64,000 nt of DNA from positions 62,001 to 126,000 of the forward strand of contig NZ_VHQH01000038.1 in NCBI RefSeq assembly GCF_006517535.1. Direction: 5' to 3'. A program made the translations under genes and the position numbers. The DNA is from Schumannella sp. 10F1B-5-1 (GTDB taxonomy: Bacteria; Actinomycetota; Actinomycetes; Actinomycetales; Microbacteriaceae). Under the pieces are notes generated by a model that was not told the origin of the DNA, searched no databases, and saw only the letters and a program-made list of their open reading frames with translations. Positions 14,855 to 61,418 of this stretch are shown here, in pieces. Position 1 is the stretch's first letter. Each line of letters opens with the position of its first letter.

Positions 14855-14917
14855 GGTTTCGGATGCACGGCGCGCTCGGGCCGCAGGAAAGCTCGGGCGT
14901 CGCCTCCATCCGAAACC
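14855..14917. repeat. 63-bp dyad element, copy a
   Basis: Outer arms GGTTTCGGATG (14855-14865) and CATCCGAAACC (14907-14917). The inner pairing at offset +22 is degenerate in this copy. Lies between two convergent genes. Confidence 0.75.
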
Positions 14918-14932
14918 GCGCACGGTCGCGGG

Positions 14933-15841
14933 TCAGCGGCGCACGAGGTCGGCCGTCACGGGGAAGTGATCGCTCGGCCAGACCGCGCCGTCGTGCTCGG
15001 GCGACGCGCCGTGCGCATCCAGGGTCGCGGTCGCCGTGACCTCGAAGCCGCGCTGCAGGATCCAGTCGATGCGCTCGCCCGGCTCTCCGGCGTCGGTCGC
15101 CGCGGCGGGGTCTCCCGTGAAGGCGTGGAACGTCGCGTCGGGACCGGTGTGGTGCGCGGCCGGGGACTCGCGCGCATCCACGAAGCCTGCCCGGATCAGG
15201 GTTTCGTGCGTCGCGGACTGCGGGCCCGTGTTCATGTCGCCGAGCAGCACGATCGGCGCTTCGGCGGCGAGGGCGTCGAGCTCGGCGGCGATCAGCTCGG
15301 CTGAACGGATGCGCGCCCGCTCGTCGGCGGGTCGGTAGGGCAGGTGGGTGACGGCGACGAGGAGGTCGGCGGCGGCGTCGGTGCTCTCATGTGTCGGGAT
15401 CTCGCGGTCGCGGAAGCGCGCCCACGTCACCATGCGCGGGAAGAGGTTGCCCCAGGTGATGCTGCCCGGCTCGTGCAGGGTGTCCGAGAGCCAGAAGTCG
15501 CCGCCGTCGAGCAGCTCGAGGCGGTCGGGGCGGTAGAGCAGTCCGACGTGCTCGTCGTCGTGGCCGCCGCGGCGGTCGCGTCCGAACCAGGCGGTGCCGG
15601 GCATCCACGACAGCAGGTCGACGGCCGGGCCGCTGCGCAGCTCCTGAACGCCGATCACGTGCGTGCCGCTGTCGTGCAGGGTGCGGGCGAGCAGGCGGCC
15701 GCGGGCGCTCCAGGATGCGGTGCCCGCGTCGACCGGGATGCGCACGTTCGCCGTCGCCACCCGCAGCGCGGGCGCGGGGCGGGCGGTGCTCGCGGGGATC
15801 TCGGACTCGAGCGGCTCGACGGTCATGCGCGGCGCGGTCAT
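14933..15841 (-). CDS. Endonuclease/exonuclease/phosphatase (EEP) fold hydrolase
   Basis: 302 residues, single EEP domain. Landmarks: RVATANVRI near the N-terminus, VIGVQELRS (metal-binding Glu), LLVAVTHLPY, VLLGDMNTGP (catalytic Asp-x-Asn) and the C-terminal WPSDHFPVTADL (catalytic Asp-His). Family members are metal-dependent phosphodiesterases acting on DNA, RNA, phospholipids or inositol phosphates; the substrate is not evident. No signal peptide, so cytoplasmic. The start ATG 15841 is 7 bases after the -10 box TAGGCT. It has no co-directional neighbour. Confidence 0.88.
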   Translation of the reverse strand: MTAPRMTVEPLESEIPASTARPAPALRVATANVRIPVDAGTASWSARGRLLARTLHDSGTHVIGVQELRSGPAVDLLSWMPGTAWFGRDRRGGHDDEHVGLLYRPDRLELLDGGDFWLSDTLHEPGSITWGNLFPRMVTWARFRDREIPTHESTDAAADLLVAVTHLPYRPADERARIRSAELIAAELDALAAEAPIVLLGDMNTGPQSATHETLIRAGFVDARESPAAHHTGPDATFHAFTGDPAAATDAGEPGERIDWILQRGFEVTATATLDAHGASPEHDGAVWPSDHFPVTADLVRR

Positions 15842-15848
15842 CTCGTCG

Positions 15849-15854
15849 AGCCTA
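15849..15854 (-). promoter_or_regulatory. -10 box TAGGCT for the EEP gene
   Basis: Minus strand TAGGCT, 7 bases, ATG (15841). Leaderless geometry. Confidence 0.55.
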
Positions 15855-15934
15855 CGAGCCGCGTCCCTGCTCCGGGGCGTGGGGCGAGGGGTGCGCGGCG
15901 ACGAGGCGTGCCGTGCCGCGCCGCCTCGGTACGC

Positions 15935-15997
15935 GGTTGCGGATGGAGCGCGAGGGCGAGCCGTCCTGAGGCTCGGCGTGGTCCCTCATCCGAAACC
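15935..15997. repeat. 63-bp dyad element, copy b
   Basis: Outer arms GGTTGCGGATG (15935-15945) and CATCCGAAACC (15987-15997). Inner hairpin CGAGCC-N7-GGCTCG starts at offset +22 (15957). It is flanked by ACGC/GCGT, which extends the arms. Confidence 0.8.
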
Positions 15998-16001
15998 GCG
16001 T

Positions 16002-16072
16002 GCACGGAAGCTGGTCAGGAGCGGTGTCGAGGCGCAATACGGCTCGACGGTCGCGCTGACCTGCTTCCGTGC
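16002..16072. repeat. 71-bp dyad element, copy 1
   Basis: Arms of 17 bp (16002-16018 and 16056-16072, one mismatch), beginning GCACGGAAGC. It follows the 63-bp copy b at 4 bases and forms a composite unit with it. Confidence 0.65.
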
Positions 16073-16103
16073 ATGCGTGCCGCGCCGTGCCGCGCCGTTA
16101 CGC

Positions 16104-16166
16104 GGTTGCGGATGGGGCGGCAGGGCGAGCCGTCCTGGGGCTCGAGGAAGCTCCTCATCCGAAACC
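16104..16166. repeat. 63-bp dyad element, copy c
   Basis: Outer arms GGTTGCGGATG (16104-16114) and CATCCGAAACC (16156-16166). Inner CGAGCC-N7-GGCTCG starts at offset +22 (16126). It lies 169 bp after copy b. Confidence 0.8.
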
Positions 16167-16170
16167 GCGT

Positions 16171-16241
16171 GCGCGGAAACCGGTGTGGGAGTGCGGCGAG
16201 CCACAGTGCGGCGCGGTGGTGCTGCTGGCCGGTTTCCGTGC
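16171..16241. repeat. 71-bp dyad element, copy 2
   Basis: The inner part of the arms, CGGAAACCGG (16174-16183) and CCGGTTTCCG (16229-16238), pairs perfectly; the ends are GCG and TGC. Offset from copy 1 is 169 bp, the same as between 63-bp copies b and c, so the composite is a two-unit tandem array. Confidence 0.6.
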
Positions 16242-16282
16242 ACGCGCGGATACCGGTCTGGCGGGACGCGCCCGCAGCGGCG

Positions 16283-16288
16283 CAGGAT
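16283..16288 (+). promoter_or_regulatory. -10-like box CAGGAT before the triplet-repeat gene
   Basis: CAGGAT, 6 bases, ATG at 16295; same spacing as the TAnnnT boxes elsewhere. Confidence 0.4.
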
Positions 16289-16294
16289 GAGCGC

Positions 16295-16660
16295 ATGAGC
16301 ATCGCGCGCCGGATCGGCGGCCTCGGAGTCCGCCTCGGCGGCAGCGGATCGGTCGAGAGCGGATCGCTCGGCAGCGTCGGCTCCCGGGGCTCGATCCGAT
16401 CGGTCGGCAGCGTCGGGTCGGTCGGCAGCGTCGGATCGATCGGATCGGTGGGGAGCATCGGCTCGATCGGGTCCATCGGCAGCATCGGCTCGATCGCGTC
16501 CATCGGCAGCGTGGGCTCGATCGGCGGCATCGGATCGGTCGGTTCGATCGCGAGCATCCTGGCCGTCGGCGGCATCGCGGCGGTCGTCGCCGTCGGAGCG
16601 ATCGGCGTCGTCGGGGTCTCCGCGATCCGAGCGTTGCGTCGCTGGCCTCGTCGATCGTGA
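16295..16660 (+). CDS. Gly-Ser-Ile/Val triplet-repeat protein with C-terminal membrane segment
   Basis: 121 residues. After a short basic start (MSIARRIGG), residues about 17-87 consist almost entirely of GS(I/V) triplets (for example GSVGSIGSIGSIGSI). A hydrophobic segment (about 88-110, ILAVGGIAAVVAVGAIGVV) and a basic tail (RALRRWPRRS) follow, which suggests a C-terminally anchored membrane protein with the repeat outside or inside the membrane plane. The period-3 pattern with alternating small and beta-branched residues suggests an extended or beta-solenoid rod. No function is recognised. The DNA repeats gg(a/c)tcgatcgg-like words, so replication slippage is likely. Preceded by a leaderless-type box; flanked by dyad elements upstream. 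Confidence 0.6.
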   Translation: MSIARRIGGLGVRLGGSGSVESGSLGSVGSRGSIRSVGSVGSVGSVGSIGSVGSIGSIGSIGSIGSIASIGSVGSIGGIGSVGSIASILAVGGIAAVVAVGAIGVVGVSAIRALRRWPRRS

Positions 16661-16693
16661 TCGTTCCGGCCTGGCGCGGCACCGACCGACCCC

Positions 16694-16699
16694 TAGGGT
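16694..16699 (+). promoter_or_regulatory. -10 box TAGGGT for the lipoprotein gene
   Basis: TAGGGT about 48 bases upstream of GTG 16748; a GAGGAG ribosome site lies between, so this gene has a leader. Confidence 0.45.
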
Positions 16700-16747
16700 C
16701 GGGTCGGGGGAGTGAGGATTCCCCGCGAGGAACCCGAGGAGTCCGCC

Positions 16748-18076
16748 GTGCGTTCTGCCGCCCCTCGTCCTACCCGGCTGACCGCCGCCCGGGCGACCGC
16801 TCTGCGCGCCAGTGCCGCGCTCGCGGTCGGAGCGCTCGCCCTCGCATCCCTGACCGGATGCACCTTCACGGCGAAGCAGGACTGGGCGAAGTACGAGGCC
16901 GCGATCGAAGCCGTCGACGGGGTGGATGAGGCCGTCGGCGGGCTCACCTACAACCTGCCCTTCTCGCCCAGCGGTGAGATGTCGGTGCGGTTCCCGGCCG
17001 AGAAGCCGACGCTCGACGCCGTGGACGACGTGGCGTGCGCACCGCCGTCGGGCGTGCCGACGCGCGTCGACTACGACCTGGCGTCGGGGAGCGGCGTGAC
17101 CGAGGTCCCCGCGTGCGGACGTCCGGCGCCGTCGGATCCGCTGGCGCTCGCCGAGGCGTTCGGCGACTCGCTCGCCGCCTCGGGGCTGCCCGCGGCGACA
17201 TCGGATCCCTTCGACTTCCCGGCTCTTGTCGTGAGCAGCTACACCCACACCGAGTACCGCGCCGAGGTGCGCGGCACCTCGGCCGGATTCACCGCGCAGG
17301 CGGCGGCGCTCGCCGCGGCCGTCGAGCATCTGGACGGCCCGGCGGGCGAGCTGGGCGGTGACCGCATCGCCCTGGTCGGCATCCCGGCCGGCGAATGGGC
17401 CGACTACCTCGACGACGCGGTGGCGCTCGACGCGGCGTTCCCGCTCGAGCGCTTCGACATCCGCCGCGGATCGCTCGCGATCACGACGCTGCAGAGCGAT
17501 CCCGACGCGGATGCGGTGCAGCAGGTACTCGAGTCGCGGTCCGCGGCCCGCTACGCCGACCTCGATATGACGGTCGCGGGCGCCGGGGCCGGCAGCGGGG
17601 TCGGCTCGGGCGGCGTCTCGGCGGGCACGTCGCAGGCGGCGATCGATCTGGTCGCGATACTGCGGATCGCGCATCCCGATGTCGACTTCCTGGCCTACGG
17701 CGACGGCGTCAGCGCCGACGTCGACGACTGCGCCGCGCTGCTGCCGATCGCCGCCGACGCCGCCGCGGCCGGTGACGGCACCGTCGCGGTGGCGCTGCGC
17801 CCGCAAGGAACGCCGTCCTTCGGCATCCGCGAGGCGCCGTTGCTCGGTCCCGACACGAACCCCTACCCGGACTGGTGCGCCCAGTACGCCCAGATCGCGG
17901 CCGATTCGGCGGCCGCGTCGGTCTGGTTCAGCGCCGACCTGCTCGAGGTGTGGCCGACGGCCGACACGCGTCGCAGGTCGGCGGAGCTGCGCGACCTCGA
18001 AGCGCTCGTCGAACGCGTCGCACGCGCGGGCGGGTACTCGGCCTACGCGATCGCGCGGGACCGCGTCGACCTCTGA
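16748..18076 (+). CDS. Putative lipoprotein of unknown function
   Basis: 442 residues. Twenty basic/polar residues, a hydrophobic stretch and the lipobox LTGC (Cys38) mark a lipoprotein signal; the mature protein would sit on the outer face of the membrane. The rest is Ala/Asp-rich with no domain I can name; Cys pairs may form disulfides. The GTG at 16748 is chosen because GAGGAG lies 7 bases upstream and the signal peptide starts there. A Gly/Ser-rich patch (GAGAGSGVGSGGVSAG) occurs mid-protein. The downstream membrane-protein gene has its own promoter. Confidence 0.75.
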   Translation: MRSAAPRPTRLTAARATALRASAALAVGALALASLTGCTFTAKQDWAKYEAAIEAVDGVDEAVGGLTYNLPFSPSGEMSVRFPAEKPTLDAVDDVACAPPSGVPTRVDYDLASGSGVTEVPACGRPAPSDPLALAEAFGDSLAASGLPAATSDPFDFPALVVSSYTHTEYRAEVRGTSAGFTAQAAALAAAVEHLDGPAGELGGDRIALVGIPAGEWADYLDDAVALDAAFPLERFDIRRGSLAITTLQSDPDADAVQQVLESRSAARYADLDMTVAGAGAGSGVGSGGVSAGTSQAAIDLVAILRIAHPDVDFLAYGDGVSADVDDCAALLPIAADAAAAGDGTVAVALRPQGTPSFGIREAPLLGPDTNPYPDWCAQYAQIAADSAAASVWFSADLLEVWPTADTRRRSAELRDLEALVERVARAGGYSAYAIARDRVDL

Positions 18077-18170
18077 GCGGCCTCCGAGGCTGCGGAAGCT
18101 TCCGCTGACGCCGCGACTCCGTGGATGCACGTCACCCCTAGTGGGGAGCGCCGCGCCGCACGCCGCGGCG

Positions 18171-18176
18171 TAGCGT
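18171..18176 (+). promoter_or_regulatory. -10 box TAGCGT for the 18183 gene
   Basis: TAGCGT, 6 bases, GTG at 18183. Confidence 0.55.
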
Positions 18177-18182
18177 CGCCGC

Positions 18183-18800
18183 GTGACCTGGCAGCTCGGA
18201 CCGCACCCCGACGACGCCGCGCGCGCCGCGGCGGCGGCGCCGGGCGGCACGGGATCCAGCGGCACGGGCGCGGGCACCGGCCCGGGCCTCGGCGCGGGCG
18301 AAGCCGACCCGAGCGGTCCCTCCGACGCGACTCCGAGCGTCCCGCACCTGCCGACCCGTCCGCAGCTGCGGCGTCCCACCCTGGTGCTGCGCCCGCGCGC
18401 CGACACCCGTGACGCGGTCGTGCTCGAGCTGCTGCCGCTACTCGCCCCGGCGCTCGCGATCGGCGCGACGCAGCTGCTGCTGCCGTGGAGCACCCTCCTG
18501 CTCGCCGCCTGCCTGGCGGTCACGAGCCTCGCGCAGCTCGTCGTCGCCTCGCGTGACGCGGCGCTGCTGCGCTCGCGCGGATTCGTCGGCACCGCGCCGT
18601 CGGCGCTCGCGCTCGTGAGCCCGATCCTCTACCTCGCCGTGCGCGGGCGCGTCTGCTCGCAGCACGACCGCACTGCCTACGCCCCGGTGCCGTGGGCGAT
18701 CGGCTCGACGGTCGTCGCGATCGGCGCGCTGGCGCTCACGGCGTGGCTCGAGGGCTCGGTGGATGCCTCCCTCGGCGGGATGCTGACCGGCCTGTTCTGA
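18183..18800 (+). CDS. Four-helix membrane protein of unknown function
   Basis: 205 residues. Residues 1-60 are Ala/Gly/Pro-rich with acidic residues and probably disordered. Then about four hydrophobic segments follow: two near the middle (LLPLLAPALAIGATQLLLPW and TLLLAACLAVTSLAQLVVA), ALALVSPILYLAV, and WAIGSTVVAIGALALTAWL near the end. No conserved motif recognised. The start GTG 18183 is fixed by the TAGCGT box six bases upstream. It converges on the cardiolipin synthase unit. Confidence 0.65.
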   Translation: MTWQLGPHPDDAARAAAAAPGGTGSSGTGAGTGPGLGAGEADPSGPSDATPSVPHLPTRPQLRRPTLVLRPRADTRDAVVLELLPLLAPALAIGATQLLLPWSTLLLAACLAVTSLAQLVVASRDAALLRSRGFVGTAPSALALVSPILYLAVRGRVCSQHDRTAYAPVPWAIGSTVVAIGALALTAWLEGSVDASLGGMLTGLF

Positions 18801-18858
18801 AGGCCGGCGGCCAGCTCGGCAGCGTCGCGCCGCCGGCTCGATCGCGCCGTGCGTCAGC

Positions 18859-19002
18859 TCATCCGCGCCGCCGCGCGAGCTCGGCGGACCGCCGTGCGAT
18901 CATGCGCCGGCGCAGCCGCACCGCGAGCTTCATGAGCGCCGCGACACCCGCGGCGACGAGCGCGCACGCGACGATCGCGCCGAGCAGCAGGAGGGCGTTC
19001 AT
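18859..19002 (-). CDS. Small (47-residue) single-span membrane protein downstream of cls
   Basis: Begins 8 bases after the cls stop codon. One hydrophobic segment (LLLLGAIVACALVAAGVAAL) is followed by a strongly basic tail (RLRRRMIARRSAELARRRG). Third-position GC is as high as in neighbouring genes, supporting real coding. Likely cotranscribed with cls. Function unknown; a small regulator or partner of Cls is only a guess. Confidence 0.5.
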   Translation of the reverse strand: MNALLLLGAIVACALVAAGVAALMKLAVRLRRRMIARRSAELARRRG

Positions 19003-19010
19003 CCCGAGCT

Positions 19011-20480
19011 CTACTGCAGCGCCGCGGTCAGGCGGGCGAAGTTGTCGAGCACCTTGCGGCGCAGGGGGCGGGCCATCCACTCGTCGAGGGTGATCTCGCG
19101 ACTGTGGGCGCGATAGTCGTCTTCGATCGCGCGCAGGCTCTCGGTGAAGCCGCGGTCGCGCACCATGACCGAGATCTCGAGGTCGAGGGTGAAGGAGCGC
19201 ATGTCCATATTGCTCGAGCCGATGACCGAGACCTCGTCGTCGATCGTCATGTGCTTGGCGTGCAGGATGGTCGGCTTGGCGTAGAGGAAGATGCGAACCC
19301 CCGCCTTCAGCAGCGCCTCGTAGTAGCTGCGCTGCGCGTGGAAGACGAAGAACTGGTCGCCGATCTCCGACACGAACAGCTGCACCTCGACGCCCTTCTG
19401 CGCGGCCGTGGTGATGGCGTAGAGCATCGAGTCGTCGGGCACGAAGTAGGGGCTGACGACGATCGCCTTGCGCTGCGCGCCGTAGAGCAGCGCGTTGAAC
19501 AGGCGCAGGTTGTTCTCGCCGGGGAAGCCGGGTCCGCTCGGCACGACCTGGCAGTCGAGCGATCCGTGCACCTCGTCGCGCGCCTCGGCGGCCTCGCGTT
19601 CGAGCAGCTCGTCGGTCTCGCTGTACCAGTCGGTCACGAACAGCGCGTCGATGCCGGCGACGATGGGGCCCTCGAAGCGGGCCATGAAGTCCTTCCAGTG
19701 CAGCCCGCGGCGGTGGTTCTTGCGCGACTGGTAGGGCGTCTCGATGACGTTCTGCGATCCCGTCCAGGCGACCTCGCCGTCGATCACGAGCAGCTTGCGG
19801 TGGTTGCGCAGGTCGGGACGGCGCCAGTGCCCCTGCAGCGGCAGCACGGGCAGCATGAGGTGCCAGTCGGCGCCCATCTCGGTGAGTCGCTTCTTGGTGC
19901 GACGGAAGCCGGGGTAGCGGAAGTTGCCCAGGTGATCGAGCAGCACCCGCACCTTCACGCCGCGCTTCACGGCATCCTCGAGCGCCTGGAAGAACGGCTC
20001 GGTCGTGCTGTCGAGGCTGAAGATGTAGAACTCGCAGTGGATGAGGCGCTTCGCCCGCCGGATCTCCTCCGTCATCGCGCGCAGCGCCCGGTCGTTGTCG
20101 TCGTAGAGCTCGGCCGTGTTGCCGCCGACGAGCGGCATGGCGCCGAGGGTGCGGTTGAGCTCGACGATCGGGCGCAGCCAGGGCGGCCACGGGTCGCTCT
20201 CGGTGACCCGCTCGATGCCCTCGGTCTGCTCGAGGATGTACTGGTTGATCTCGCGCTGCTTCTGCCGGCGGCGTCGCGGCAGCCGGTGCGACCCGAACAG
20301 CAGGAAGATCAGGATGCCGAGGTACGGGATCAGGAAGATCGCCAGCAGCCACGCCATCGCCGTCTGCGGGCGGCGGTTGCGCGGGATGATCGCGAGCGCG
20401 GCGATGCGCGCGGCGAAGTCGATCACGAGCAGGGCGATCACGATGGCCAGCGTCAGCCAGCCGACCCATCCCTCACCCAT
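19011..20480 (-). CDS. cls: Cardiolipin synthase (PLD superfamily)
   Basis: 489 residues. Makes cardiolipin at the membrane. Two N-terminal transmembrane helices (about 8-30 and 40-62) are followed by two phospholipase D motifs: HRKLLVID (H227, K229, D234) and HAKHMTID (H407, K409, D414), each followed by G-S-x-N. Length and architecture match bacterial Cls. ATG 20480 lies 7 bases after the -10 box TAGAGT; the frame extends upstream only into the neighbouring kinase gene. The TAG stop codon of that kinase forms the first half of this -10 box. Confidence 0.92.
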   Translation of the reverse strand: MGEGWVGWLTLAIVIALLVIDFAARIAALAIIPRNRRPQTAMAWLLAIFLIPYLGILIFLLFGSHRLPRRRRQKQREINQYILEQTEGIERVTESDPWPPWLRPIVELNRTLGAMPLVGGNTAELYDDNDRALRAMTEEIRRAKRLIHCEFYIFSLDSTTEPFFQALEDAVKRGVKVRVLLDHLGNFRYPGFRRTKKRLTEMGADWHLMLPVLPLQGHWRRPDLRNHRKLLVIDGEVAWTGSQNVIETPYQSRKNHRRGLHWKDFMARFEGPIVAGIDALFVTDWYSETDELLEREAAEARDEVHGSLDCQVVPSGPGFPGENNLRLFNALLYGAQRKAIVVSPYFVPDDSMLYAITTAAQKGVEVQLFVSEIGDQFFVFHAQRSYYEALLKAGVRIFLYAKPTILHAKHMTIDDEVSVIGSSNMDMRSFTLDLEISVMVRDRGFTESLRAIEDDYRAHSREITLDEWMARPLRRKVLDNFARLTAALQ

Positions 20481-20487
20481 GTGAGGA

Positions 20488-20493
20488 ACTCTA
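20488..20493 (-). promoter_or_regulatory. -10 box TAGAGT for cls, overlapping the stop codon of the kinase gene
   Basis: Minus strand TAGAGT at 20493-20488. Its first three bases are the TAG stop of the upstream kinase (20493-20491). Spacer of 7, then ATG (20480). Confidence 0.5.
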
Positions 20494-21447
20494 GGGCGTG
20501 GGCACCGTCGGCACCGCCGCCCCGCTGAGCCGCAGCGCGTAGAGCGCGGCCCCGAGTGACGGGTCGTGCAGCGGCGCGCGCAGCTCGAACGGCAGCCCCG
20601 TCTCCTCCAGCGCGGCGGCGAAGCCCGCGACGAAGCCGGGTGCCGCGAACACGCCGCCCGAATACGACACGGGGATCGTCTCGTCGTCCGGCGCGGCCAG
20701 ACCGGCCCGCACGGCGGCGACCTGCGCGGCGAGCTCGTGCTGCGCATCCACCAGGATCTGCTGCGCCACCGGGTCGCCGGCCGCCGCCGCCGCGGTGGCG
20801 ACCTTCGACAGGTCGGCGATGAGCCCGCGCTGCGACGCCCACTCGCCCACGATGACGCCGATCGCGTCGAGGTCGTCGGCGACGCCGAGGCGCTCGCGCA
20901 TCATGCCGTGCAGCGCGGTGCGGGGCAGGCGCCCGTCGGCCATGCGGCTGAAGGCGCCGAGCGCGCGCACCGCGATCCAGTACGCCGAGCCCTCGTCGCC
21001 GAAGATCTCGCTCCAGCCGCCGGTGCGGTGGCTGACGCCGGCGCGCTCGCCGTAGGCCATCGATCCGGTGCCGGCGATCACGTTGATGCCGTCGGCGGCG
21101 CCGAGCGAGCCCGCCCATCCGCTGATCATGTCGTTGCCGCAGCGGTAGCGGTCGTGCCCGAGGATCGGCGCCGGGATCGCGTCGAGCGTCGGCACGTCGG
21201 CGCTCGCCTCGCCGTAGCCGGGCATCGCGTAGAAGACGAAGTCGAGCTGGTCGCGGGTCACGCCGCTCTGCGCCTCGATGTCGGCGAGGCCGTCGGCGAG
21301 CACGTCGCCGACGAGCTGGATGCCGCGCTCGGTTCCGAAGTAGTAGCAGGTGCGCTGGCGCGACTCGGCGATGCGGGCGCCGGTCTCGTCGATCAGCAGG
21401 AACGCGGTCTTGGTGCCGCCGCCGTCGATGCCGAGGTAGTGCGGCAT
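20491..21447 (-). CDS. BadF/BadG/BcrA/BcrD-type ATPase, N-acetylglucosamine-kinase-like sugar kinase
   Basis: 318 residues, ASKHA fold. Phosphate-1 motif LGIDGGGTKTAF (residues 5-16), phosphate-2 VIAGTGSMAYGE, GGWSEIFGDEGSAYWIAVRAL (typical of GlcNAc-kinase-like members), and the adenosine loop VSYSGGVFAAPGF. Most likely a cytoplasmic ATP-dependent kinase of N-acetylglucosamine or a related amino sugar in wall recycling. The sugar itself is not certain. It is followed by cls, which has its own promoter inside the stop codon region. Confidence 0.85.
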   Translation of the reverse strand: MPHYLGIDGGGTKTAFLLIDETGARIAESRQRTCYYFGTERGIQLVGDVLADGLADIEAQSGVTRDQLDFVFYAMPGYGEASADVPTLDAIPAPILGHDRYRCGNDMISGWAGSLGAADGINVIAGTGSMAYGERAGVSHRTGGWSEIFGDEGSAYWIAVRALGAFSRMADGRLPRTALHGMMRERLGVADDLDAIGVIVGEWASQRGLIADLSKVATAAAAAGDPVAQQILVDAQHELAAQVAAVRAGLAAPDDETIPVSYSGGVFAAPGFVAGFAAALEETGLPFELRAPLHDPSLGAALYALRLSGAAVPTVPTP

Positions 21448-21496
21448 GCAGAACTCGCTTCGCTGTGAGGGGATGTCTCGCTCACACTCGCGGTTT

Positions 21497-22085: not shown

Positions 22086-22091
22086 GAACCC

Positions 22092-35506: not shown

Positions 35507-35584
35507 CCCACTGCGGCGCGCCGTGCCGTTCCGGCATCCGTCACCCGCGGTTCACCGGGCGCTCAGCTGTCGTGCTGATCTCGC

Positions 35585-35640
35585 GAGTTGCCCACTTCTG
35601 CTGGGTTGGCGGCCTGCAACCCAGCAGAAGTGGGCAACTC
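35585..35640. repeat. 56-bp dyad element, copy 1 (perfect)
   Basis: Arms of 24 bp (35585-35608 and 35617-35640), exact reverse complements, loop of 8. Begins GAGTTGCCCACTTCTGC. It lies 44 bp beyond the serine dehydratase stop and could also act as its terminator. Confidence 0.85.
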
Positions 35641-35684
35641 GGTGGGGCTCGGCGACGGGGAGCCGATGTCGTTTGGGAGCCTCG

Positions 35685-38845: not shown

Positions 38846-38882
38846 GGCAGATCAGCGGACCCCAGCCCAGCTCTGAATACGC

Positions 38883-38938
38883 GAGTTGCCCGCTTCTGCG
38901 GCTTCCCGGGAGGGACATGCCGCGGAAGCGGGCAACTC
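38883..38938. repeat. 56-bp dyad element, copy 3
   Basis: GAGTTGCCCGCTTCTGCGG at the left and its near reverse complement at the right (ending GGGCAACTC). Total again 56 bp, 93 bp after copy 2. Confidence 0.75.
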
Positions 38939-38972
38939 ACGAACCAGGTGGGCGAGCGCCCACCCCGCGCGC

Positions 38973-50004: not shown

Positions 50005-50284
50005 GAAGGTGGCCACGAACGCCCGCCTCGCGCGGCGTGTTGCGAGCTTTTCCGGCCATCCTCGCTTCTCGCCGGATCGAGGGCGGCCACGAATGCACGC
50101 CTTTCACGGCGTGTCCGGTGCATCTCTGGCCACCCTCCGGCGTGCGCATGACGAGGGTGGCCGCGAATGCCCGCTTGCGGCGGCGTGTCCGGTGCATCTC
50201 TGGCCACCCTCCGGCGTGCGCATGACGAGGGTGGCCACGAATGCTCGCGGGATCCGGCGCGTCGCGTGCATTTCTGGCCACCTC
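50005..50284. repeat. 74-bp tandem array of four 59-bp dyad elements
   Basis: Elements at 50005-50063, 50079-50137, 50153-50211 and 50227-50284 (the last 1 bp shorter). Each is bounded by GAGGGTGGCC-type and GGCCACCCTC-type arms, with starts exactly 74 bp apart. The interior contains GAATGC and GTGCATCT words. A degenerate fifth unit may begin near 50301. The 437-bp region 49961-50397 has no gene. Confidence 0.85.
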
Positions 50285-50320
50285 GCGCTGCTCGAGCGAC
50301 GAGAGGTGGATGCGGTGCCG

Positions 50321-53551: not shown

Positions 53552-53552
53552 G

Positions 53553-54692: not shown

Positions 54693-54708
54693 ACCGCGCC
54701 GTCACGCA

Positions 54709-54745
54709 CGAAGGGCCGCCGATCGCGATGATCGGCGGCCCTTCG
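54709..54745. terminator. Bidirectional terminator between prpC and HPr
   Basis: 16-bp perfect arms (54709-54724 and 54730-54745, CGAAGGGCCGCCGATC type), loop GCGAT. Serves both convergent units. Confidence 0.75.
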
Positions 54746-54770
54746 TGATCAGAGCGAGTGGATGCGCCCC

Positions 54771-55049: not shown

Positions 55050-57112
55050 GCGCGGGCTCCGATCGCCTCGCGCACGGTGGCGACGACGTTCTCGACCGTC
55101 ATGCCGCGCGCGGCCAGGGCGTCGGCGGCGGGCGCCGAGAGGCCGAAGCCGTCGATGCTCACGATGCGGCCGTGCGGTCCGGCCACGTCGTGCCAGCCGA
55201 ACGAGGTCGCGGCCTCGACGACGACGCGCACATCCATCCCGGCCGGCAGCACCGACGCGCGGTAGGCGGCGTCCTGCTCGGCGAACCATTCCCGCGACGG
55301 CATGGAGACGACGCGCAGCTGGGTTCCCTCGGCGGCGAGCTGCTCGGCGGCGGCGAGCGCGAGGCTCACCTCCGAGCCGGTCGCGACGATCACGGCGGCG
55401 GGAGCGGCGGCGTCGCGCACGACGTAGGCGCCGCGGCGCACGCCCTCGGCGACGACCTCGGCCGGGGTCGCGGCGACCTCGATCGGCTGGCGGGCCAGCA
55501 CGAGTCCGGCCGGGCCGCGGCGCTGCAGGATCGCGAGCCAGGCGGCGGCGGTCTCGGCGGCATCCGCGGGGCGCACGACGCTGAAGCCGGGCATCGCGCG
55601 CAGGGCGGCGAGGTGCTCGATCGGCTGGTGGGTGGGGCCGTCGGAGCCGAGGGCGACCGAGTCGTGGCTCCACAGGTAGGTGACCGGCAGGCCCATGAGG
55701 CTGGCCAGGCGGATCGACGGGCGCTGGTAGTCGCTGAACACCAGGAAGGTGCCGGCGAAGAAGCGGTTGCCCGACACGAGCGAGATGCCGTTCATCGCGG
55801 CGGCCATGGCGTGCTCGCGCACGCCCCAGTGCACGTTGCGGCCGGCCGGGGTGGCGGGCAGGAAGGATCCGCCGCCGTGGATGGCGGTGCGGTTCGGCTC
55901 GGCCAGGTCGGCCGACCCGCCCCACAGCTCGGGCATGAGCGCGGCGAGCGCCTGGATGACCTTGCCCGAGGCGTCGCGCGTGGCGAGCGCGTCGCCGGGG
56001 GCGAAGGTCGGCAGCGCGGCCTCGAGTCCCTCGGGCAGCAGGCCCGACTGGGCGCGGTGCAGCTGCGCGGCGGCCTCGGGATGCGCGGCCGTCCACCCCT
56101 CGAACGACTCCTGCCAAGCGGAGCTCAGCTCGGCCCCGCGGGTGAGCGCCCGGCGCGACTCGGCGAGCACCTCGTCGGCGACCTCGAACGGTCCGGTGGT
56201 GACGCCGAGCACGTCACGGAGTGCGGCGGCCTCGGTGGCGCCGAGCGGGGCGCCGTGCGAGGCGGCCATGCCGACGGCGTTGGGGGCGGGCCAGGCGATC
56301 TGCGACTTCAGCACCACGAGGCGGGGCTTGCCGGCGCGGGGTGCGGAGAGCGCCGCATCCAGGGCCTCGATGTCGACGTCGCCGTCGGCCGCGAGCTCGA
56401 CGCGCGCGACGTCCCAGCCGTGAGCGGTGAAGCGTCCGGCGACGTCCTCCGAGCTCGACAGCGTGGTCGCGCCCTCGATCTGGATGTCGTTGTCGTCGTA
56501 GATGACGACGAGGTTGTCGAGGCGGTGGTGCCCGGCGATAGCGGCGGCCTCGGCCGAGATCCCCTCCTGGATGTCGCCGTCGGAGGCGAGCACCCAGACG
56601 GTGCGGTCGAAGGGCGAGGCGCCCGCGGCGGCGTCGGCGTCGTAGACGGCGCGCTCGTGCTTCATGGCCATCGCCATGCCGACGGCCGTCGCGAAGCCCT
56701 GGCCGAGCGGACCGGTCGTGGTCTCGACGCCGGGGGTGTGGCCGTACTCCGGGTGGCCGGGCGTGAGCGAGTCGAGCGCGCGGAACGAGCGCAGGTCGTC
56801 GAGCTCGAGGCCGTAGCCGGTGAGGAAGAGCTGGGTGTAGAGCAGGATGCTGGCGTGCCCGCACGAGAGCACGAAGCGGTCGCGGCCGGCCCAGTCGGGC
56901 TGCGCGGGGTCGTGGCGCAGGTGCTTGCGGAACAGCAGCTCGGCGACCGGCGCGAGTGCGATCGCGGTGCCGGGGTGGCCCGAGCCGGCGGCCTCGACGG
57001 CGTCGAGCGCGAGCAGGCGGGCGGTGGTGACGGTGTCGACGGCGGGTGCGGTCGCGGTGCCGGCGGCGTCGCTCGGGGCGACTCCGGGGGCGGCGGGGGC
57101 GGCGGTGCTCAT
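55046..57112 (-). CDS. tkt: Transketolase
   Basis: 688 residues, full length. TPP-dependent two-carbon transfer in the pentose phosphate pathway. DAVEAAGSGHPGTAIALAP at the N-terminus, TPGHPEYGHTPGVETTTGPLGQG, TPP motif ASDGDIQEGISAEAAAIAGH to YDDNDIQIEG, and SHDSVALGSDGPTHQPIEHL (central domain). ATG preceded by AGGAGAG. Divergent from the GntR-PTS operon and coupled to ptsH, so possibly dedicated to the sugar imported by that PTS rather than being the housekeeping copy. Confidence 0.94.
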   Translation of the reverse strand: MSTAAPAAPGVAPSDAAGTATAPAVDTVTTARLLALDAVEAAGSGHPGTAIALAPVAELLFRKHLRHDPAQPDWAGRDRFVLSCGHASILLYTQLFLTGYGLELDDLRSFRALDSLTPGHPEYGHTPGVETTTGPLGQGFATAVGMAMAMKHERAVYDADAAAGASPFDRTVWVLASDGDIQEGISAEAAAIAGHHRLDNLVVIYDDNDIQIEGATTLSSSEDVAGRFTAHGWDVARVELAADGDVDIEALDAALSAPRAGKPRLVVLKSQIAWPAPNAVGMAASHGAPLGATEAAALRDVLGVTTGPFEVADEVLAESRRALTRGAELSSAWQESFEGWTAAHPEAAAQLHRAQSGLLPEGLEAALPTFAPGDALATRDASGKVIQALAALMPELWGGSADLAEPNRTAIHGGGSFLPATPAGRNVHWGVREHAMAAAMNGISLVSGNRFFAGTFLVFSDYQRPSIRLASLMGLPVTYLWSHDSVALGSDGPTHQPIEHLAALRAMPGFSVVRPADAAETAAAWLAILQRRGPAGLVLARQPIEVAATPAEVVAEGVRRGAYVVRDAAAPAAVIVATGSEVSLALAAAEQLAAEGTQLRVVSMPSREWFAEQDAAYRASVLPAGMDVRVVVEAATSFGWHDVAGPHGRIVSIDGFGLSAPAADALAARGMTVENVVATVREAIGARA

Positions 57113-57171
57113 GCGTTCTCTCCTGGTGTCGCGTCCGCGCCGGGTCTCGGCGGCGGTGTTGTCGGCAGGGG

Positions 57172-57216
57172 CGACGATAGTGTAATAATCATGTCGTCAT
57201 AACGAATCAGGATGAT
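57172..57216. promoter_or_regulatory. Divergent promoter/operator region of tkt and the GntR-PTS operon
   Basis: An AT-rich pocket in a GC-rich genome. TCGT-CATA-ACGA (57194-57205) is a perfect dyad, and GACGA/TCGTC (57172-57176, 57194-57198) is a wider one. The tkt -10 may be TACACT (57184-57179, minus). Likely bound by the GntR protein encoded at 57304. Confidence 0.5.
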
Positions 57217-57303
57217 CTGCTCCGGGATGACCGCCAACGTCACCGCGCGGCCTCGGCCCCGCGGCACCCATCGCGAAACGCATCACTCAACGGGGAGGCG
57301 CCG

Positions 57304-58032
57304 ATGCCCACCGCCACCGGCACGAGCAAGTACGTCGCCGTGCGCGAGCACCTGCTCACGCGCATCCGCGACCTCGAGGTCGGCACCCGCCTGCCCGCCG
57401 AGCCGGTGCTCTGCGACGAGTACGGCGTCAGCCGCATCACCCTGCGCCACGCGGTCGACGGCCTCATCGCCGACGGCGTGCTCGTGCGCGAGCAGGGCCG
57501 CGGCACCTTCGTCTCGGCGCCGCGCTACGCCTCGCGCTACCCCGAGCGCTTCGCCGACCAGGTCAGCGGATTCCACACCCAGCAGAGTCGCGAGGGGCAC
57601 CGGGTGCACACCCGCGTCGTCGGCTTCGAGGATGCGCCGGCCGGCTCGTTCAGCAGCGACCGGCTCGACGTGAGCAGCGCCGACCGCGTCGCCCGCCTCA
57701 CCCGTCTGCGCTACGTCAACGACGCCCTGCACCACCTCGCGATCACCGACCTGCCGCTCGACCGCTTCCCCGGCATCCTCGAGGTCGACTTCACCGACGG
57801 CTCGCTTTTCGACTGGCTGCGCGGGCAGGGCGTCAAGCTCGCCCGCAACGAGGTCGTCGTGTCGATCGACACCGCCGACACGGCGCTCGCCGAGCACCTC
57901 GGCGTCGATGTCGGCGAGAAGGTGCTGCGCGTCGACTCCACCGTGTTCGACGCCGACGACCGCGCCGTCAGCTACGGCACCTCGCACTTCACCCCGCAGA
58001 ACAGCGAGATCGCGTTCGGCCTGCACGGCTGA
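57304..58032 (+). CDS. GntR family regulator (HutC/UTRA type)
   Basis: 242 residues. Winged HTH: KYVAVREHLLTRIRDLEVGTRLP, LCDEYGVSRITLRHAVDGLI, REQGRGTFV; UTRA domain from about residue 90 (HRVHTRVVGFEDAP to RAVSYGTSHFTPQNSEIAF). Such proteins bind sugar phosphates and control PTS genes. GGGGAGG upstream. It heads the PTS operon and shares the control region with tkt. Confidence 0.9.
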   Translation: MPTATGTSKYVAVREHLLTRIRDLEVGTRLPAEPVLCDEYGVSRITLRHAVDGLIADGVLVREQGRGTFVSAPRYASRYPERFADQVSGFHTQQSREGHRVHTRVVGFEDAPAGSFSSDRLDVSSADRVARLTRLRYVNDALHHLAITDLPLDRFPGILEVDFTDGSLFDWLRGQGVKLARNEVVVSIDTADTALAEHLGVDVGEKVLRVDSTVFDADDRAVSYGTSHFTPQNSEIAFGLHG

Positions 58033-58108
58033 GCCGAACCCGCCGCCACGCCCCGACCGCATCCCGCCACCCCGACCCGCACCGATCCGACCGAGAGAAC
58101 CGCACCGC

Positions 58109-58561
58109 ATGCTGAGCGACAACCTCACCCCCGAGCGCATCCAGTTCGCCGAGAACGTGGATGGCTGGCGCACCGCCGTCGAGCAGGTCGCCGCCCCGCT
58201 GCTGGCCGACGGCTCGATCGAACCGGGCTACGTCACCGCCATGACCGACTCGATCGCGAACGGCGGCACCTACATCGACCTCGGCTTCGGCATCGCGCTC
58301 GCGCACGCCCGCCCCGAGGCCGGCGTGAACCGCACCGGCCTGTCGTACCTGCGCGTCACCCCCGCGGTGCTGCTCAACGACGAGGCCGCGCATCCCATCG
58401 ACCTCTTCCTGTGCCTCGCCGCGACCGACCCGAGCGGGCACCTGGAGACCATGCAGGAGCTCGCCGGCCTGCTCACCGACGCCGAGCAGCGCGACGCGCT
58501 GCTCGCGGCCACCACGCCCGCCGAGGTCTCGGCGGTCATCCACCAGAACGGACACGAATGA
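58109..58561 (+). CDS. PTS EIIA component (mannitol/fructose/ascorbate class)
   Basis: 150 residues. Phospho-His expected in GFGIALAHARPEAGVN (His66). Conserved TPERIQFAENVDGWRTAVEQV and EAAHPIDLFLCLAATDPSGHL match PTS EIIA type 2. Passes phosphate from HPr to IIB. Next gene overlaps its stop. Confidence 0.9.
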   Translation: MLSDNLTPERIQFAENVDGWRTAVEQVAAPLLADGSIEPGYVTAMTDSIANGGTYIDLGFGIALAHARPEAGVNRTGLSYLRVTPAVLLNDEAAHPIDLFLCLAATDPSGHLETMQELAGLLTDAEQRDALLAATTPAEVSAVIHQNGHE

Positions 58562-58857
58562 TGAAGTTCCTCGCGGTCTGCAGCACGGGGCTGGGTTCCA
58601 GCTTCATGGTGCACATGAACATCGAGAAGGTGCTCAAGGAGCTCGGGATCACCGGGGTCGACGTCGACCACGCCGACCTCGGATCCGTCGCCAAGGGCGA
58701 CGCCGATGCGGTCTTCGTCGGAGCCGACCTCGCCGAGGCCGCCGCCGGGCTCGGGGATGTCGTGGTGCTCGACAGCATCATCGACATCAATGAGCTGAAG
58801 ACCAAGGTCAAGGCCACCGCCGAGCGCAAGGGCCTCATCGCGGGAGGTGCCGAGTGA
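58558..58857 (+). CDS. PTS EIIB component (lactose/ascorbate class)
   Basis: About 99 residues. Phospho-Cys in FLAVCSTGLGSSFMV. Either ATG 58558 (overlapping the IIA stop) or ATG 58561 may start it; the former gives the usual ATGA coupling. Overlaps the IIC start by GTGA. Confidence 0.9.
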   Translation: MMKFLAVCSTGLGSSFMVHMNIEKVLKELGITGVDVDHADLGSVAKGDADAVFVGADLAEAAAGLGDVVVLDSIIDINELKTKVKATAERKGLIAGGAE

Positions 58858-60302
58858 ACCCGGTCGTCGACGGCATCCTCTCCGTCTTCCTCGACATCTT
58901 CCGTCAGCCGGCGATCATCGTCGCGCTGATCTCGCTCATCGGCCTCGCCGTGCAGCGCAAGACCTTCAGCGACGTGCTCAAGGGCACCGTGCGCACCCTC
59001 GTCGGCTTCCTCGTGCTCGCCGCGGGCGCCGGCGTCGTGGTCGGCTCGCTCGGCTTCTTCGGCGACATGTTCCAGCACGCCTTCGACGTGCAGGGCGTCG
59101 TGCCGAACAACGAGGCGATCGTCGGCCAGGTGCTGCTCGAGTACGGCTCGGCCGCCGCGCTGATCTTCTTCTTCGGCATGATCGTCAACATCGCCCTGGC
59201 GGCGCTGACGCGCTTCAAGTTCATCTACCTGTCGGGTCACGTGGCGTTCTACATCGCGGCGATGATCGCCGTGATCCTCGGCGTCGCCGGCTTCGACACC
59301 TGGGCCGTCGTGCTCTGGGGCTCGCTCGCGCAGGGCGTCTACATGACCCTGTCGCCGGCGCTCATCCAGCCCTTCATGCGCAAGGTCACCGGCAACGACG
59401 ACGTGGCCCTCGGCCACACCGGCGGCGTCGGCATCGCGCTGAGCGGCCTGGTCGCCACGGTCACCCGCGGCAAGGGCACCTCGAAGTCGACCGAGGAGAT
59501 CAAGTTCCCGAACGGCCTCGGCTTCCTGCGCGACACGACCGTGATCGTCGCCCTCTCGATGGCCGTGATCTACGTGATCGTCGGACTCTTCGCGGGCGCC
59601 GCCTACATCGAGGGCGAGCTCAGCGACGGGCAGAACTTCATCGTCTTCCTGCTCATGCAGGCGGCGACGTTCTCGGCTGGAGTGTTCATCATCCTCGCCG
59701 GCGTGCGGGTCGTGCTCGCCGAGATCATCCCGGCGTTCAAGGGCATCTCCGACCGCCTGGTCAAGAACGCCAAGCCCGCCCTGGATGTGCCGATCGTCTT
59801 CCCGTTCGCCCCGAACGCGGTGCTCATCGGATTCCTGTCGAGCTTCGTCGGCGGCATCGTCGGCCTGGTCGCGATGGTGTTCATGGGCGGCGCGATCATC
59901 GTGCCGGGCGTCGTGGCGCACTTCATGACCGGTGCCGCCTCGGGCGTCATCGGCAACGCCGCCGGCGGACGTCGCGGTGCGATCCTCGGCGCCTTCGCCA
60001 ACGGCATCGCGATCACCTTCCTGCCGCTGCTGCTCCTGCCGGTGCTGGGCGAGATCGGATTCGCCAACTCGACCTTCTCCGACGCCGACTACGGCATCGT
60101 CGGCCTGTTCCTCGGCTGGCTGTCGGTCGGCGGCGGGCAGATCGCCGTCATCGCGGGCATCCTCGTGTCGATCGTCGCGATGTTCGTCGCGACGGTGGCG
60201 CTGCGCGGTCGCGACCGCCGCCGCGCCGCGGGCGAGGGCGCGTCGGACGCCGAGTCGGCTGGCGCGTCGGCCGACGCTGCTGAGGCTTCGGCGAGCAAGT
60301 GA
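58854..60302 (+). CDS. PTS EIIC component, UlaA/SgaT (ascorbate) family
   Basis: 482 residues, about 11 helices. Channel subunit of the L-ascorbate PTS class: FRQPAIIVALISLIGLAVQRK, PNNEAIVGQVLLEYGSAAAL, HTGGVGIALSGLVAT, FPNGLGFLRDT, FPFAPNAVLIGFLSSF and GFANSTFSDADYGIVGLFLG. Members carry L-ascorbate or unknown carbohydrates. No ulaD/E/F-type genes (keto-gulonate pathway) are nearby, only a transketolase and a HAD phosphatase, so a pentose-related sugar is possible. The Ala/Ser/Glu C-terminal tail is probably disordered. Confidence 0.9.
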   Translation: MNPVVDGILSVFLDIFRQPAIIVALISLIGLAVQRKTFSDVLKGTVRTLVGFLVLAAGAGVVVGSLGFFGDMFQHAFDVQGVVPNNEAIVGQVLLEYGSAAALIFFFGMIVNIALAALTRFKFIYLSGHVAFYIAAMIAVILGVAGFDTWAVVLWGSLAQGVYMTLSPALIQPFMRKVTGNDDVALGHTGGVGIALSGLVATVTRGKGTSKSTEEIKFPNGLGFLRDTTVIVALSMAVIYVIVGLFAGAAYIEGELSDGQNFIVFLLMQAATFSAGVFIILAGVRVVLAEIIPAFKGISDRLVKNAKPALDVPIVFPFAPNAVLIGFLSSFVGGIVGLVAMVFMGGAIIVPGVVAHFMTGAASGVIGNAAGGRRGAILGAFANGIAITFLPLLLLPVLGEIGFANSTFSDADYGIVGLFLGWLSVGGGQIAVIAGILVSIVAMFVATVALRGRDRRRAAGEGASDAESAGASADAAEASASK

Positions 60303-60345
60303 ATCGGCTCTCGGCGCGCTGACACCGGCGGGCTGAGACCATAGG

Positions 60346-60375
60346 GATGCGGGGCGGCTTCGGTCGCCCCGCATC
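60346..60375 (+). terminator. Terminator after the PTS operon
   Basis: GATGCGGGGCG (60346-60356), loop GCTTCGGT, exact complement 60365-60375. Confidence 0.65.
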
Positions 60376-60492
60376 GTCATGAACGGCGCCGCCCTGCGCC
60401 TCGGGCATCGAGCGCGGGCGGCGCGAGCGCGCTGCCGACCGCGGCGCCGAGCGCCCCGCCACCGCGAGCGGGGCGAGCTGAGGAGAGAACCC

Positions 60493-61146
60493 ATGGTGCG
60501 CATCCCCGTCGAGGGTCTGCTGTTCGACTGCGACGGCGTGCTCGTCGACTCGATCGAGTCGGCCGGGCGCGCCTGGGGTGTCTGGTCGGAGCGCTGGGCG
60601 CCCGAGTTCGACTTCCACCGCGACATCGTGCACGGCGTGCGCGCCGTCGAGACCGTGCGCACCCTCGTCGCCGCCGACGACGTCGAGCGCGCCAACGCCG
60701 AGCTCGAGCGCCTCGAGATCGAGCACGTCGAGGGCACCGCCGCGATCCCGGGCGCCGTCGAGCTGACGGATGCGCTGCCCCAGGGAGCCTGGACGGTCGT
60801 CACCTCGGGCGCGCGCGAGCTCGCCGCCCGCCGCCTCGCCTCGGCCGGCATCGCCCGCCCCGACGGCATCGTCGCCGCCGAGGACGTGTCGAACGGCAAG
60901 CCCGACCCCGAGCCCTACCGCCGCGGCGCCGAGCTGATCGGCATCGATCCCGCCGCCTGCGTCGTCTTCGAAGACGCGCCGGCCGGCATCGCCGCGGCCC
61001 GCGCCGCCGGCGTCGGCACGATCGTCGGCGTCGGAGCGGGCGCCGCCGCGGGATCGCCCGACGTGCTCGTCGCCGACCTGCGCGACGTGAGCTGGGACGG
61101 CGCGGCGCTCGTCGTCACCCCGGCCGAGCCCGCGCCCGTGGCCTGA
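60493..61146 (+). CDS. HAD-superfamily sugar phosphatase / phosphomutase-like
   Basis: 217 residues, HAD subfamily IA. Nucleophile motif FDCDGVLVDSIESAGRAW, motif II VVTSGARELAARRLASAG, motif III/IV GKPDPEPYRRGAELIGIDP and VVFEDAPAGIAAARAAG. Acts on a sugar phosphate, probably the PTS product. AGGAGAG sets the ATG at 60493. A hairpin separates it from the PTS operon, so it may have its own promoter. Confidence 0.88.
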   Translation: MVRIPVEGLLFDCDGVLVDSIESAGRAWGVWSERWAPEFDFHRDIVHGVRAVETVRTLVAADDVERANAELERLEIEHVEGTAAIPGAVELTDALPQGAWTVVTSGARELAARRLASAGIARPDGIVAAEDVSNGKPDPEPYRRGAELIGIDPAACVVFEDAPAGIAAARAAGVGTIVGVGAGAAAGSPDVLVADLRDVSWDGAALVVTPAEPAPVA

Positions 61147-61211
61147 GCCGCTGCGGCGGCCGTGCCGCCCGCGGCCCCGCGTTCCGCGCCCGCGCCCCGC
61201 GCGCCGTACGC

Positions 61212-61274
61212 CGTTTCGGATGGAGCGGATCGCCGAGCCCGATGGCGGCTCGGCGGTGCGGTGCATCCGAAACC
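61212..61274. repeat. 63-bp dyad element, copy d
   Basis: Arms CGTTTCGGATG (61212-61222) and CATCCGAAACC (61264-61274), 10 of 11 positions paired; inner CGAGCC-N7-GGCTCG at offset +22 (61234). Part of the 641-bp region 61147-61787, which has no firm gene. Confidence 0.8.
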
Positions 61275-61355
61275 GCGCACGTCGCGGGGCGGCACCGCGC
61301 CAGGTCGTCGCGCCCGGCGCTCGGCGCCCGAGCCTCGGCGTCGCGCGCCGTACGC

Positions 61356-61418
61356 CGTTTCGGATGAGTGGGGTCGCCGAGCCTGATAGCGGCTCGGAGG
61401 GCTCGTGCTTCCGAAACC
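61356..61418. repeat. 63-bp dyad element, copy e
   Basis: Arms CGTTTCGGATG (61356-61366) and CTTCCGAAACC (61408-61418); inner CGAGCC-N7-GGCTCG at offset +22 (61378). 144 bp after copy d; both are preceded by GCGCGCCGTACGC. Confidence 0.8.

Follow-up and report, generated by a model that had tools for sequence, protein, structure and literature searches.

The window considered here, a 64,000-bp stretch of the Schumannella sp. 10F1B-5-1 genome (contig NZ_VHQH01000038.1, positions 62,001 to 126,000), carries seven copies of a 77-bp inverted repeat, which we refer to as dyads. With roughly even confidence, we favor the possibility that they form a genus-restricted set of interspersed dyads resembling REPINs (REP doublets forming hairpins; REP, repetitive extragenic palindromic) and are duplex-DNA targets read by a trans-acting protein. 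Each copy would be a two-fold symmetric duplex target with an outer tier (GTNC/GNAC), outer arms whose centres are 52 bp apart, inner half-sites at a distance of 13 bp and 11-bp spacers that are free in letters and fixed in length. A protein dimer or tetramer would read the letter-conserved blocks in fixed helical phase, and the same recognition would account both for the fixed length and for past spread, via an enzyme other than a Y1/RAYT transposase (RAYT, REP-associated tyrosine transposase); local tandem duplication would afterwards yield pairs and arrays. Arm classes A, B and D (and C in another species) may be targets of related proteins, interchangeable at one intergenic place. The reading protein, spread by insertion and any present role are what we infer from the letters, geometry, copy numbers, positions and distribution observed for the dyads.

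A preliminary description of the window had reported five copies of a 63-bp dyad; all five are present where it placed them, each 63 bp long. Their arms are GGTTTCGGATG/CATCCGAAACC or one letter away: the copies at 15935 and 16104 start with GGTTGCGGATG and those at 61212 and 61356 with CGTTTCGGATG, the 61356 copy ending in CTTCCGAAACC. The inner CGAGCC-N7-GGCTCG had also been placed correctly, at offset +22 in four of the five copies, the degenerate fifth being the one at 14855 (CGGGCC-N7-AGCTCG), and the convergent, divergent and co-oriented contexts, from which it had been argued that the dyads are not only terminators, match our independent gene calls. Conserved letters reach beyond the 63 bp, with G at -5 in 30 and T at -4 in 25 of 31 class A dyads (per-column count) and the mirror positions likewise; since letters outside the 63 bp are conserved (GTNC...GNAC), we take the unit to be about 77 bp. 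Two further dyads, laid out alike but with different arms (class B) and absent from the description, lie at 16006-16068 and 16175-16237, each beside a class A copy. The 77-bp units are as follows, without assigned strand and with scores from R1, a joint A+B covariance model which, having been built from 77-bp sequences, is biased towards this length.

14848..14924 (core 14855-14917): class A dyad, 77 bp, 70 bits, inner hairpin degenerate, between convergent genes
15928..16004 (core 15935-15997): class A dyad, 75 bits, in a divergent gap, first half of an A-B composite
15999..16075 (core 16006-16068): class B dyad, 70 bits, arms GGAAGCTGGTC/GACCTGCTTCC, inner block CGAGGC-N7-GGCTCG
16097..16173 (core 16104-16166): class A dyad, 73 bits, first half of a second A-B composite
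16168..16244 (core 16175-16237): class B dyad, 68 bits, arms GGAAACCGGTG/GGCCGGTTTCC, inner block CGAGCC-N7-GGCGCG
61205..61281 (core 61212-61274): class A dyad, 81 bits, first of a pair, at a place common with G003:C1:133676-133899
61349..61425 (core 61356-61418): class A dyad, 77 bits, second of the 61-kb pair

Exact length with drifting sequence had been noted for the five copies, and both this and the existence of further copies hold for the window's own genome (G000; 3,280,410 bases in 324 contigs). At E ≤ 0.1, R1 found at least 42 places in 22 G000 loci (about 32 class A and 10 class B by inspection), at least 16 in G003, at least 17 in G004, one in G002 and two weak ones in G001, all of the same genus; scoring was limited to the best 150 candidates per genome and these numbers may be underestimates. 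We excluded as copies two weak G004 matches inside genes (1238802 and 48498), the two G001 matches and G002:408528, and retained G003:17262 (E 0.008) among 12 G003 loci. The length is 77 bp in 42 of 42 G000 places, where spacers drift, and, at E ≤ 1e-4, in 13 of 14 places in G003 and 7 of 8 in G004. Length was also tested with the gap left free. In G000 all eight exact class A arm pairs have a gap of 41 although 25-55 was permitted (reversed control, 0); with up to three mismatches, 31 pairs have this gap (control, 0), and 35 of the 43 exact GTTTCGGATG words in the genome are arms of these 31 dyads. Over 282,929 bases (the window plus stretches round copies), 27 of 47 arm pairs with at most one mismatch per arm have gap 41; the other 20 have gaps of 7-190, eight of them inside one tandem array. 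That array (L054:3978-4400; G000:C13:339978-340399) holds four class A copies at a 115-bp period, with an extra CATCCGAAAC word in the linkers, and is probably a recent tandem expansion. Taken alone, the inner pattern CGAGCY-N7-RGCTCG is unspecific (31 sites vs 26 in the reversed control), and a de novo complementarity search of 400 kb of G002 did not favour 77 bp (5 matches vs 4-8 at other lengths).

Four arm classes share this plan or come close to it. Class B emerged from a scan for the class A layout in stretches round the copies; its arms are of the CGTGCAC-GGAARCNGGTN type and its inner block of the CGAGCC-N7-GGCTCG type, one letter away in both window copies; the spacing is that of class A, and the two classes align without gaps over 77 columns (42 sequences). 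Class C, reached by running R1 on 400 kb round dnaA of G002 and then through its own repeated word, reads CGGCTSAG-N37-CTSAGCCG. Its span of 53 equals that of CGGATG...CATCCG in class A; the arms and the inner block (mostly of the CGCGGCG-N5-CGCCGCG type, not CGAGCC) differ, the spacing does not. There are 14 exact and two one-mismatch class C sites in G002 (control, 2), from which we used a set of 15, dropping 408528 as it has no inner dyad. Class C is claimed for G002 only, because counts in G000, G001, G003 and G004 show no excess over the control. Class D (GGATACTG) has a span of 64, one base longer, and occurs in G003 and, by inspection, in G004.

Within the unit, conservation is confined to blocks of letters. 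Averaged over pairs of 20 class A loci, identity reaches 0.87/0.86 in arms, 0.84/0.71 in inner blocks and 0.53 in the outer seven, as against 0.39/0.38 in the spacers and 0.34 in the flanks. Base-pair covariation, which the preliminary description had proposed looking for, is lacking in class A, where observed pairs are close to the expectation from column composition and a T to G change at arm position 5 is uncompensated (15 Watson-Crick pairs vs 18.2 expected). Elsewhere the outcome is mixed: the signal is weak in class B (10 cells changed on both sides vs 6.2 in shuffles; 12 and 14 of 500 shuffles as high in two measures) and strong when A and B are joined, a point taken up below. Spacer complementarity is at chance in all three classes measured, being equalled or exceeded by 112 of 500 shuffles in A, 496 in B and 148 in C. 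Chance pairing of the spacers together with the absence of class A covariation therefore points to recognition of duplex DNA, and what is conserved would be the half-site letters of the duplex and their distances rather than an RNA structure.

The gene context bears on whether the dyads could instead be RNA elements. We used our own codon-usage gene calls (tRNA genes left out), counted copies in one 3-kb bin once and took as background 241 gaps from the window, the G003 samples and 400 kb of G002. The 42 intergenic loci of G000, G003 and G004 comprise 28 co-directional, 10 convergent and 4 divergent gaps, compared with 123, 35 and 83 in the background. Divergent gaps are avoided (4/42 vs 83/241; Fisher p 0.0009) and convergent ones are not enriched (p 0.17); two of the 'divergent' loci, G000 C323:104127 and G004 C8:122303, sit among tRNA genes. 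The 15 class C copies lie in nine co-directional, six convergent and no divergent contexts; eight of these 77-mers begin 0-14 bp past a called stop, in another three the overlap with a called 3' end is 19 bp, and seven partly overlap a called gene.

This rarity of divergent gaps and the class C copies at 3' ends would suit RNA elements at the ends of genes, acting as bidirectional terminators or mRNA-stabilising hairpins, as would the strong joint A+B pairing, the weak class B signal and the folding of the seven window copies as RNA (z -4.4 to -7.7). The folding score, however, mostly restates the inverted repeats themselves, and the chance spacers and covariation-free class A argue the other way. 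A terminator, moreover, requires neither fixed letters nor fixed length; a divergent locus is common to G000 and G003, some copies are intragenic, and a search of 14700-16400 for a T-run after a GC stem found its sole match at 14794, where there is no dyad (the 61-kb copies were checked by inspection only). We consider this explanation quite improbable. An element already in Rfam was ruled out separately, as the gathering score of its covariance models was reached in the window by one tRNA only and by no dyad.

Nine further loci, three in each of G000, G003 and G004, overlap called genes. Two of these are the weak G004 matches; the reading frames of five genes run through the seven remaining copies. 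G000 and G003 each have one in an alpha-amylase-family gene, G000 has one in a class-III aminotransferase fusion and one in a STAND NTPase gene, G003 has one in a second amylase-family gene, which we take to be TreY, and G003 and G004 each have one in a penicillin amidase gene. The STAND NTPase orthologues of G003 and G004 lack about 56 residues that include the copy, and this case is the best sign that a dyad may once have been inserted.

The preliminary description had offered a selected structure or a small mobile element of REPIN or MITE type (MITE, miniature inverted-repeat transposable element). The organisation of a repeat element stands: several classes, tandem clusters, few divergent sites and in-frame intragenic copies are all REPIN/REP-like. 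The RAYT-type transposase and the target duplications that were to go with it do not. PF01797, the Y1 family, and nothing besides it, was searched for, and gave no match in G000, G002, G003 or G004; the control matched in E. coli and four others of 14. A strictly RAYT-driven REPIN is thereby rejected. G001, where clear copies are lacking and R1 gave two weak matches, has a Y1 transposase match with an internal stop (L098; G001:C47). Nor was a convincing target duplication seen in 90 copies, at k = 2, 3, 4, 5, 6 and 8 and boundaries from -8 to +15 round the 77-mer. Large excesses occur only within the element, because GTGCAC is self-complementary; outside it there are small 2-mer excesses (9 vs 5.4 in A, 6 vs 2.8 in B), given without p-values. 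Target duplications could have been lost from old copies.

The dyads have the terminal inverted repeats of a MITE, and like REPINs they combine inverted letter-conserved ends, a less conserved spacer and a fixed distance with several classes, an extragenic location and clusters, features described in PMC3116915, which gives for a GI doublet of SBW25 a distance of 71 bp between the first residues of the 16-mers. Unlike REPINs, they occur in carriers without PF01797, have an extra conserved inner dyad mid-element and have spacers unpaired beyond chance. Their ends, which begin GTNC, may also lack a tagged REP hairpin: by inspection, no conserved stem longer than 3 bp is visible within one half. 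Despite the common layout, then, we call the dyads REPIN-like in organisation and not members of the REPIN/RAYT system, because there is neither a PF01797 match nor a convincing target duplication.

Two other systems are close in description. According to PMC3733652, REPs lie mainly between co-directional and convergent genes and sometimes within genes, and no dedicated transposase is known for CGTC REPs. The dyads resemble the CGTC-tagged REPs in being palindromic, in lying in co-directional or convergent gaps near 3' ends with some intragenic copies and in having no known dedicated transposase; those REPs are single stems of 8-9 bp with 4-5 bp loops, whereas the dyads have a fixed 77 bp, two to three tiers and a distribution restricted to one genus. 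Rickettsia palindromic elements (RPEs), which insert in frame within genes (PMC10969869), likewise form several palindromic families found in frame inside unrelated genes (PMC10969869 and PMC3733652). The likeness is one of description, and RPEs are about 150 bp long and known for intragenic insertion, whereas the dyads measure 77 bp and are intergenic for the most part. How REP-type repeats fare without RAYTs is still a general problem, and CGTC REPs, too, have no known dedicated transposase (PMC3733652). A small set of duplexes, equal in length, conserved in letters and with sister classes at the same place in related species, makes both the putative reader protein and mobility directly testable.

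Several places are common to more than one species. Judged by one or both flanking proteins, eight of the 22 loci in G000 have a counterpart within the same gap or gene of G003 or G004; for one more (C2:243 kb) the counterpart is one gene off, and several G003 and G004 loci match mutually. The window pair 61212/61356 corresponds to the pair G003:133676/133823, and the window cluster at 15.9-16.2 kb to G003:191331. The class may differ at a common place: four A copies at G000 C13:340 kb stand opposite D in G004, and A at G000 C323:104127 opposite B in G004. The class C locus G002:2177221 is one gene away from the position that C13:299 kb has in G000; for the other class C loci of G002 flanking proteins revealed no common place. 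Copies of the same class at common places were paired in frame 14 times, a copy pair sometimes being paired in alternative ways. Arm identity is 0.73-0.91 in 13 of these pairings and 0.59 in the last, and identity over spacers plus loop is 0.34-0.66 in 12; a cross-class pairing and a shifted one gave lower identity. In three A-B composites the A and B starts are separated by 71 bp: two are those of the window, and the third is in G004, where no flanking protein is common; for other A/B neighbours the distance is 69-101 bp.

These pairings also bear on the idea that the dyads are fossils, left by MITEs of a lost DDE transposon and without function today. Such fossils would leave behind terminal inverted repeats, scattered copies, some of them in frame within genes, and a patchy occurrence, but not arms that mostly outlast their spacers; no convincing target duplication accompanies the dyads, and a parent element with these ends was not seen, though the genome was not read whole. 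We regard this explanation as very unlikely.

The preferred reading, that of duplex targets recognised by a trans-acting protein, has to be set against a number of points that weigh against it: (i) neither a transposase nor a binding protein was identified, and PF01797 is absent from the three carriers; (ii) when A and B are aligned jointly, three of five measures (paired cells, two-sided changes and covariation score) are higher than in any of 500 shuffles and than in the slid controls, a signal that we attribute to the single A/B difference because shuffles ignore relatedness; (iii) spacers are retained in two class B pairs, G003:1079123/G004:545603 (0.97; intragenic) and G003:944456/G004:682537 (0.76); (iv) the missing STAND NTPase segment exceeds the length of the dyad, and the second amylase-family gene of G003 is just 16 residues longer than that of G000 where the dyad encodes 26, and therefore insertion of the dyad alone is not demonstrated; (v) the copies in the penicillin amidase gene sit close to the C-terminus, codon usage beyond them is poor, and they are perhaps a 3' extension; and (vi) common places speak for age, not present mobility, while arms retained at orthologous places would fit a host binding site as well. 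The dyads may possibly have been co-opted as protein-binding sites.

A host role is the substance of another alternative, in which a nucleoid protein of the genus's own would bind dyads that mark the chromosome near its origin, serving segregation, looping or the exclusion of division from the nucleoid, the copies having spread by local duplication and turnover. Chromosome position gives this idea its force. In G003, a single contig, dnaA lies at 768 kb with parS sites at 772-775 kb, and the coding-strand bias in 20 samples switches at dnaA and near 2.7 Mb, with exceptions; these three marks were used to place the origin. GC skew in the same number of samples had the opposite of its usual sign. 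All 12 G003 loci (16 copies) lie between -751 and +371 kb of dnaA, their mean distance of 342 kb being matched by 1 of 200000 uniform simulations, and tRNA loci in that genome show no such bias (28 loci holding 37 of 45 tRNAs; 173172 of 200000 simulations as low). For G000, mapped approximately by tRNA anchors, the 22 loci lie on average 531 kb from oriC, a value reached from below by 32 of 200000 simulations; 18 are less than 700 kb away, and none comes closer than about 590 kb to the opposite point. In G004, C1 matches range over 545-1239 kb, dnaA being at 866 kb, and four others are on C8 and C9.

Thus A/B loci crowd round oriC in G003 and G000, tRNA loci in G003 do not, dnaA adjoins parS and the strand switch, and positions are common to species, all of which suits chromosome organisation. 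Against it, the 15 class C copies of G002, of equal geometry, are evenly spread (on average at 0.47 of the half-chromosome, with 36041 of 100000 simulations equally low or lower), and with this a general origin bias of dyads is rejected. Six G000 loci lie out at 676-1288 kb, G001 has just two weak matches, the sign of GC skew in G003 is unexpected, intragenic copies would be odd for such a role, and slower gene turnover near the origin could make the bias. We see this alternative as possible but on the doubtful side; the origin bias belongs to A/B in G003 and G000, and slow turnover near the origin may be its cause. Although palindromic and origin-proximal like the parS sites of ParB, the dyads differ in sequence and range over hundreds of kb, whereas parS-like sites (TGTTTCACGTGAAACA, at most two mismatches) number 4-5 in each of four genomes, each within about 7 kb of dnaA, and none occurs at a dyad. 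Should the origin bias prove true in more species, the dyads would be a candidate chromosome-domain mark besides parS. A bolder version of the preferred reading, which we put forward tentatively and think unlikely, is a genus-wide code in which the helical layout (outer tier, arm, 11-bp spacer, inner dyad and their mirror image) is selected, the letters fall into interchangeable classes read by related proteins, and the origin half is marked in some species.

Classes A and B are carried by three of the five species seen in the genus (G000, G003 and G004), with class C in a fourth (G002). When R1 was run over 149 relatives from 120 genera (E ≤ 1e-4, stricter filters), matches were confined to the same three genomes and none fell outside the genus; a first search of relatives had given five positive genomes, in two of which (G009 and G029) single three-mismatch sites were counted as chance. 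A scan of named genomes for class A arms (gap 28-55), in a set that may omit records close to the window's genome, returned 36 stretches from many phyla, two of them actinobacterial (Nocardia and Paraeggerthella). Their span is 61 in one (L103), 60 in seven and 75 in six; we read them as probable chance or coding matches. The span-60 stretches are L105, L108, L116, L120, L125, L126 and L130, three of them from Bradyrhizobium. Viral scans gave 10 class A stretches, none with span 61, and no class B stretch. A literature search that included the arm letters yielded no account of these repeats among the matches listed, those to the arm letters being on other topics.

A de novo search for 8-base inverted words repeated at one span turned up more fixed-span dyads in G000, G002 and G003. 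Two other genera were compared over 400 kb each: classes there reached at most three copies in G005 and two in G018, and repeated word-span classes numbered 55 in G005 and 12 in G018 compared with 170 in 400 kb of G002, partly because G+C is lower in G005 and G018 (0.68 and 0.67 vs 0.73). The genus thus seems rich in fixed-span dyads, A/B being one family among several.

Some members of this wider collection lie in the window. An array of about four copies at 50007-50285, upstream of a GntR/FCD gene, has the form GGGTGGCCA-CGAATGC ... GGCGTGTC ... TGCATCT-CTGGCCACCC with a span of 55; the family occurs elsewhere in G000 and, with span 56, in G003. Long inverted repeats at 35584-35641 and 38880-38941 (25 bp perfect; 23 bp, 91%) have arms AGTTGCCCRCTTCTGC and a span of 54 between AGTTGCCC words. 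In G002 (L214-L233; G002:C1:1842001-2242000) there are families CTTCCGAAATGCAGGA (span 89, five copies per 400 kb) and AGACATGTCT (span 62, four copies), and in G003 a family GAGAGTACGYA... with span 58 (L175:3606, L188:6260 and L261:6710), whose inner GGCGTRTC is also found in the GGGTGGCC family. Finally, a perfect 18-bp hairpin with a 5-base loop at 54707-54747 of the window, between convergent genes, is a terminator candidate.

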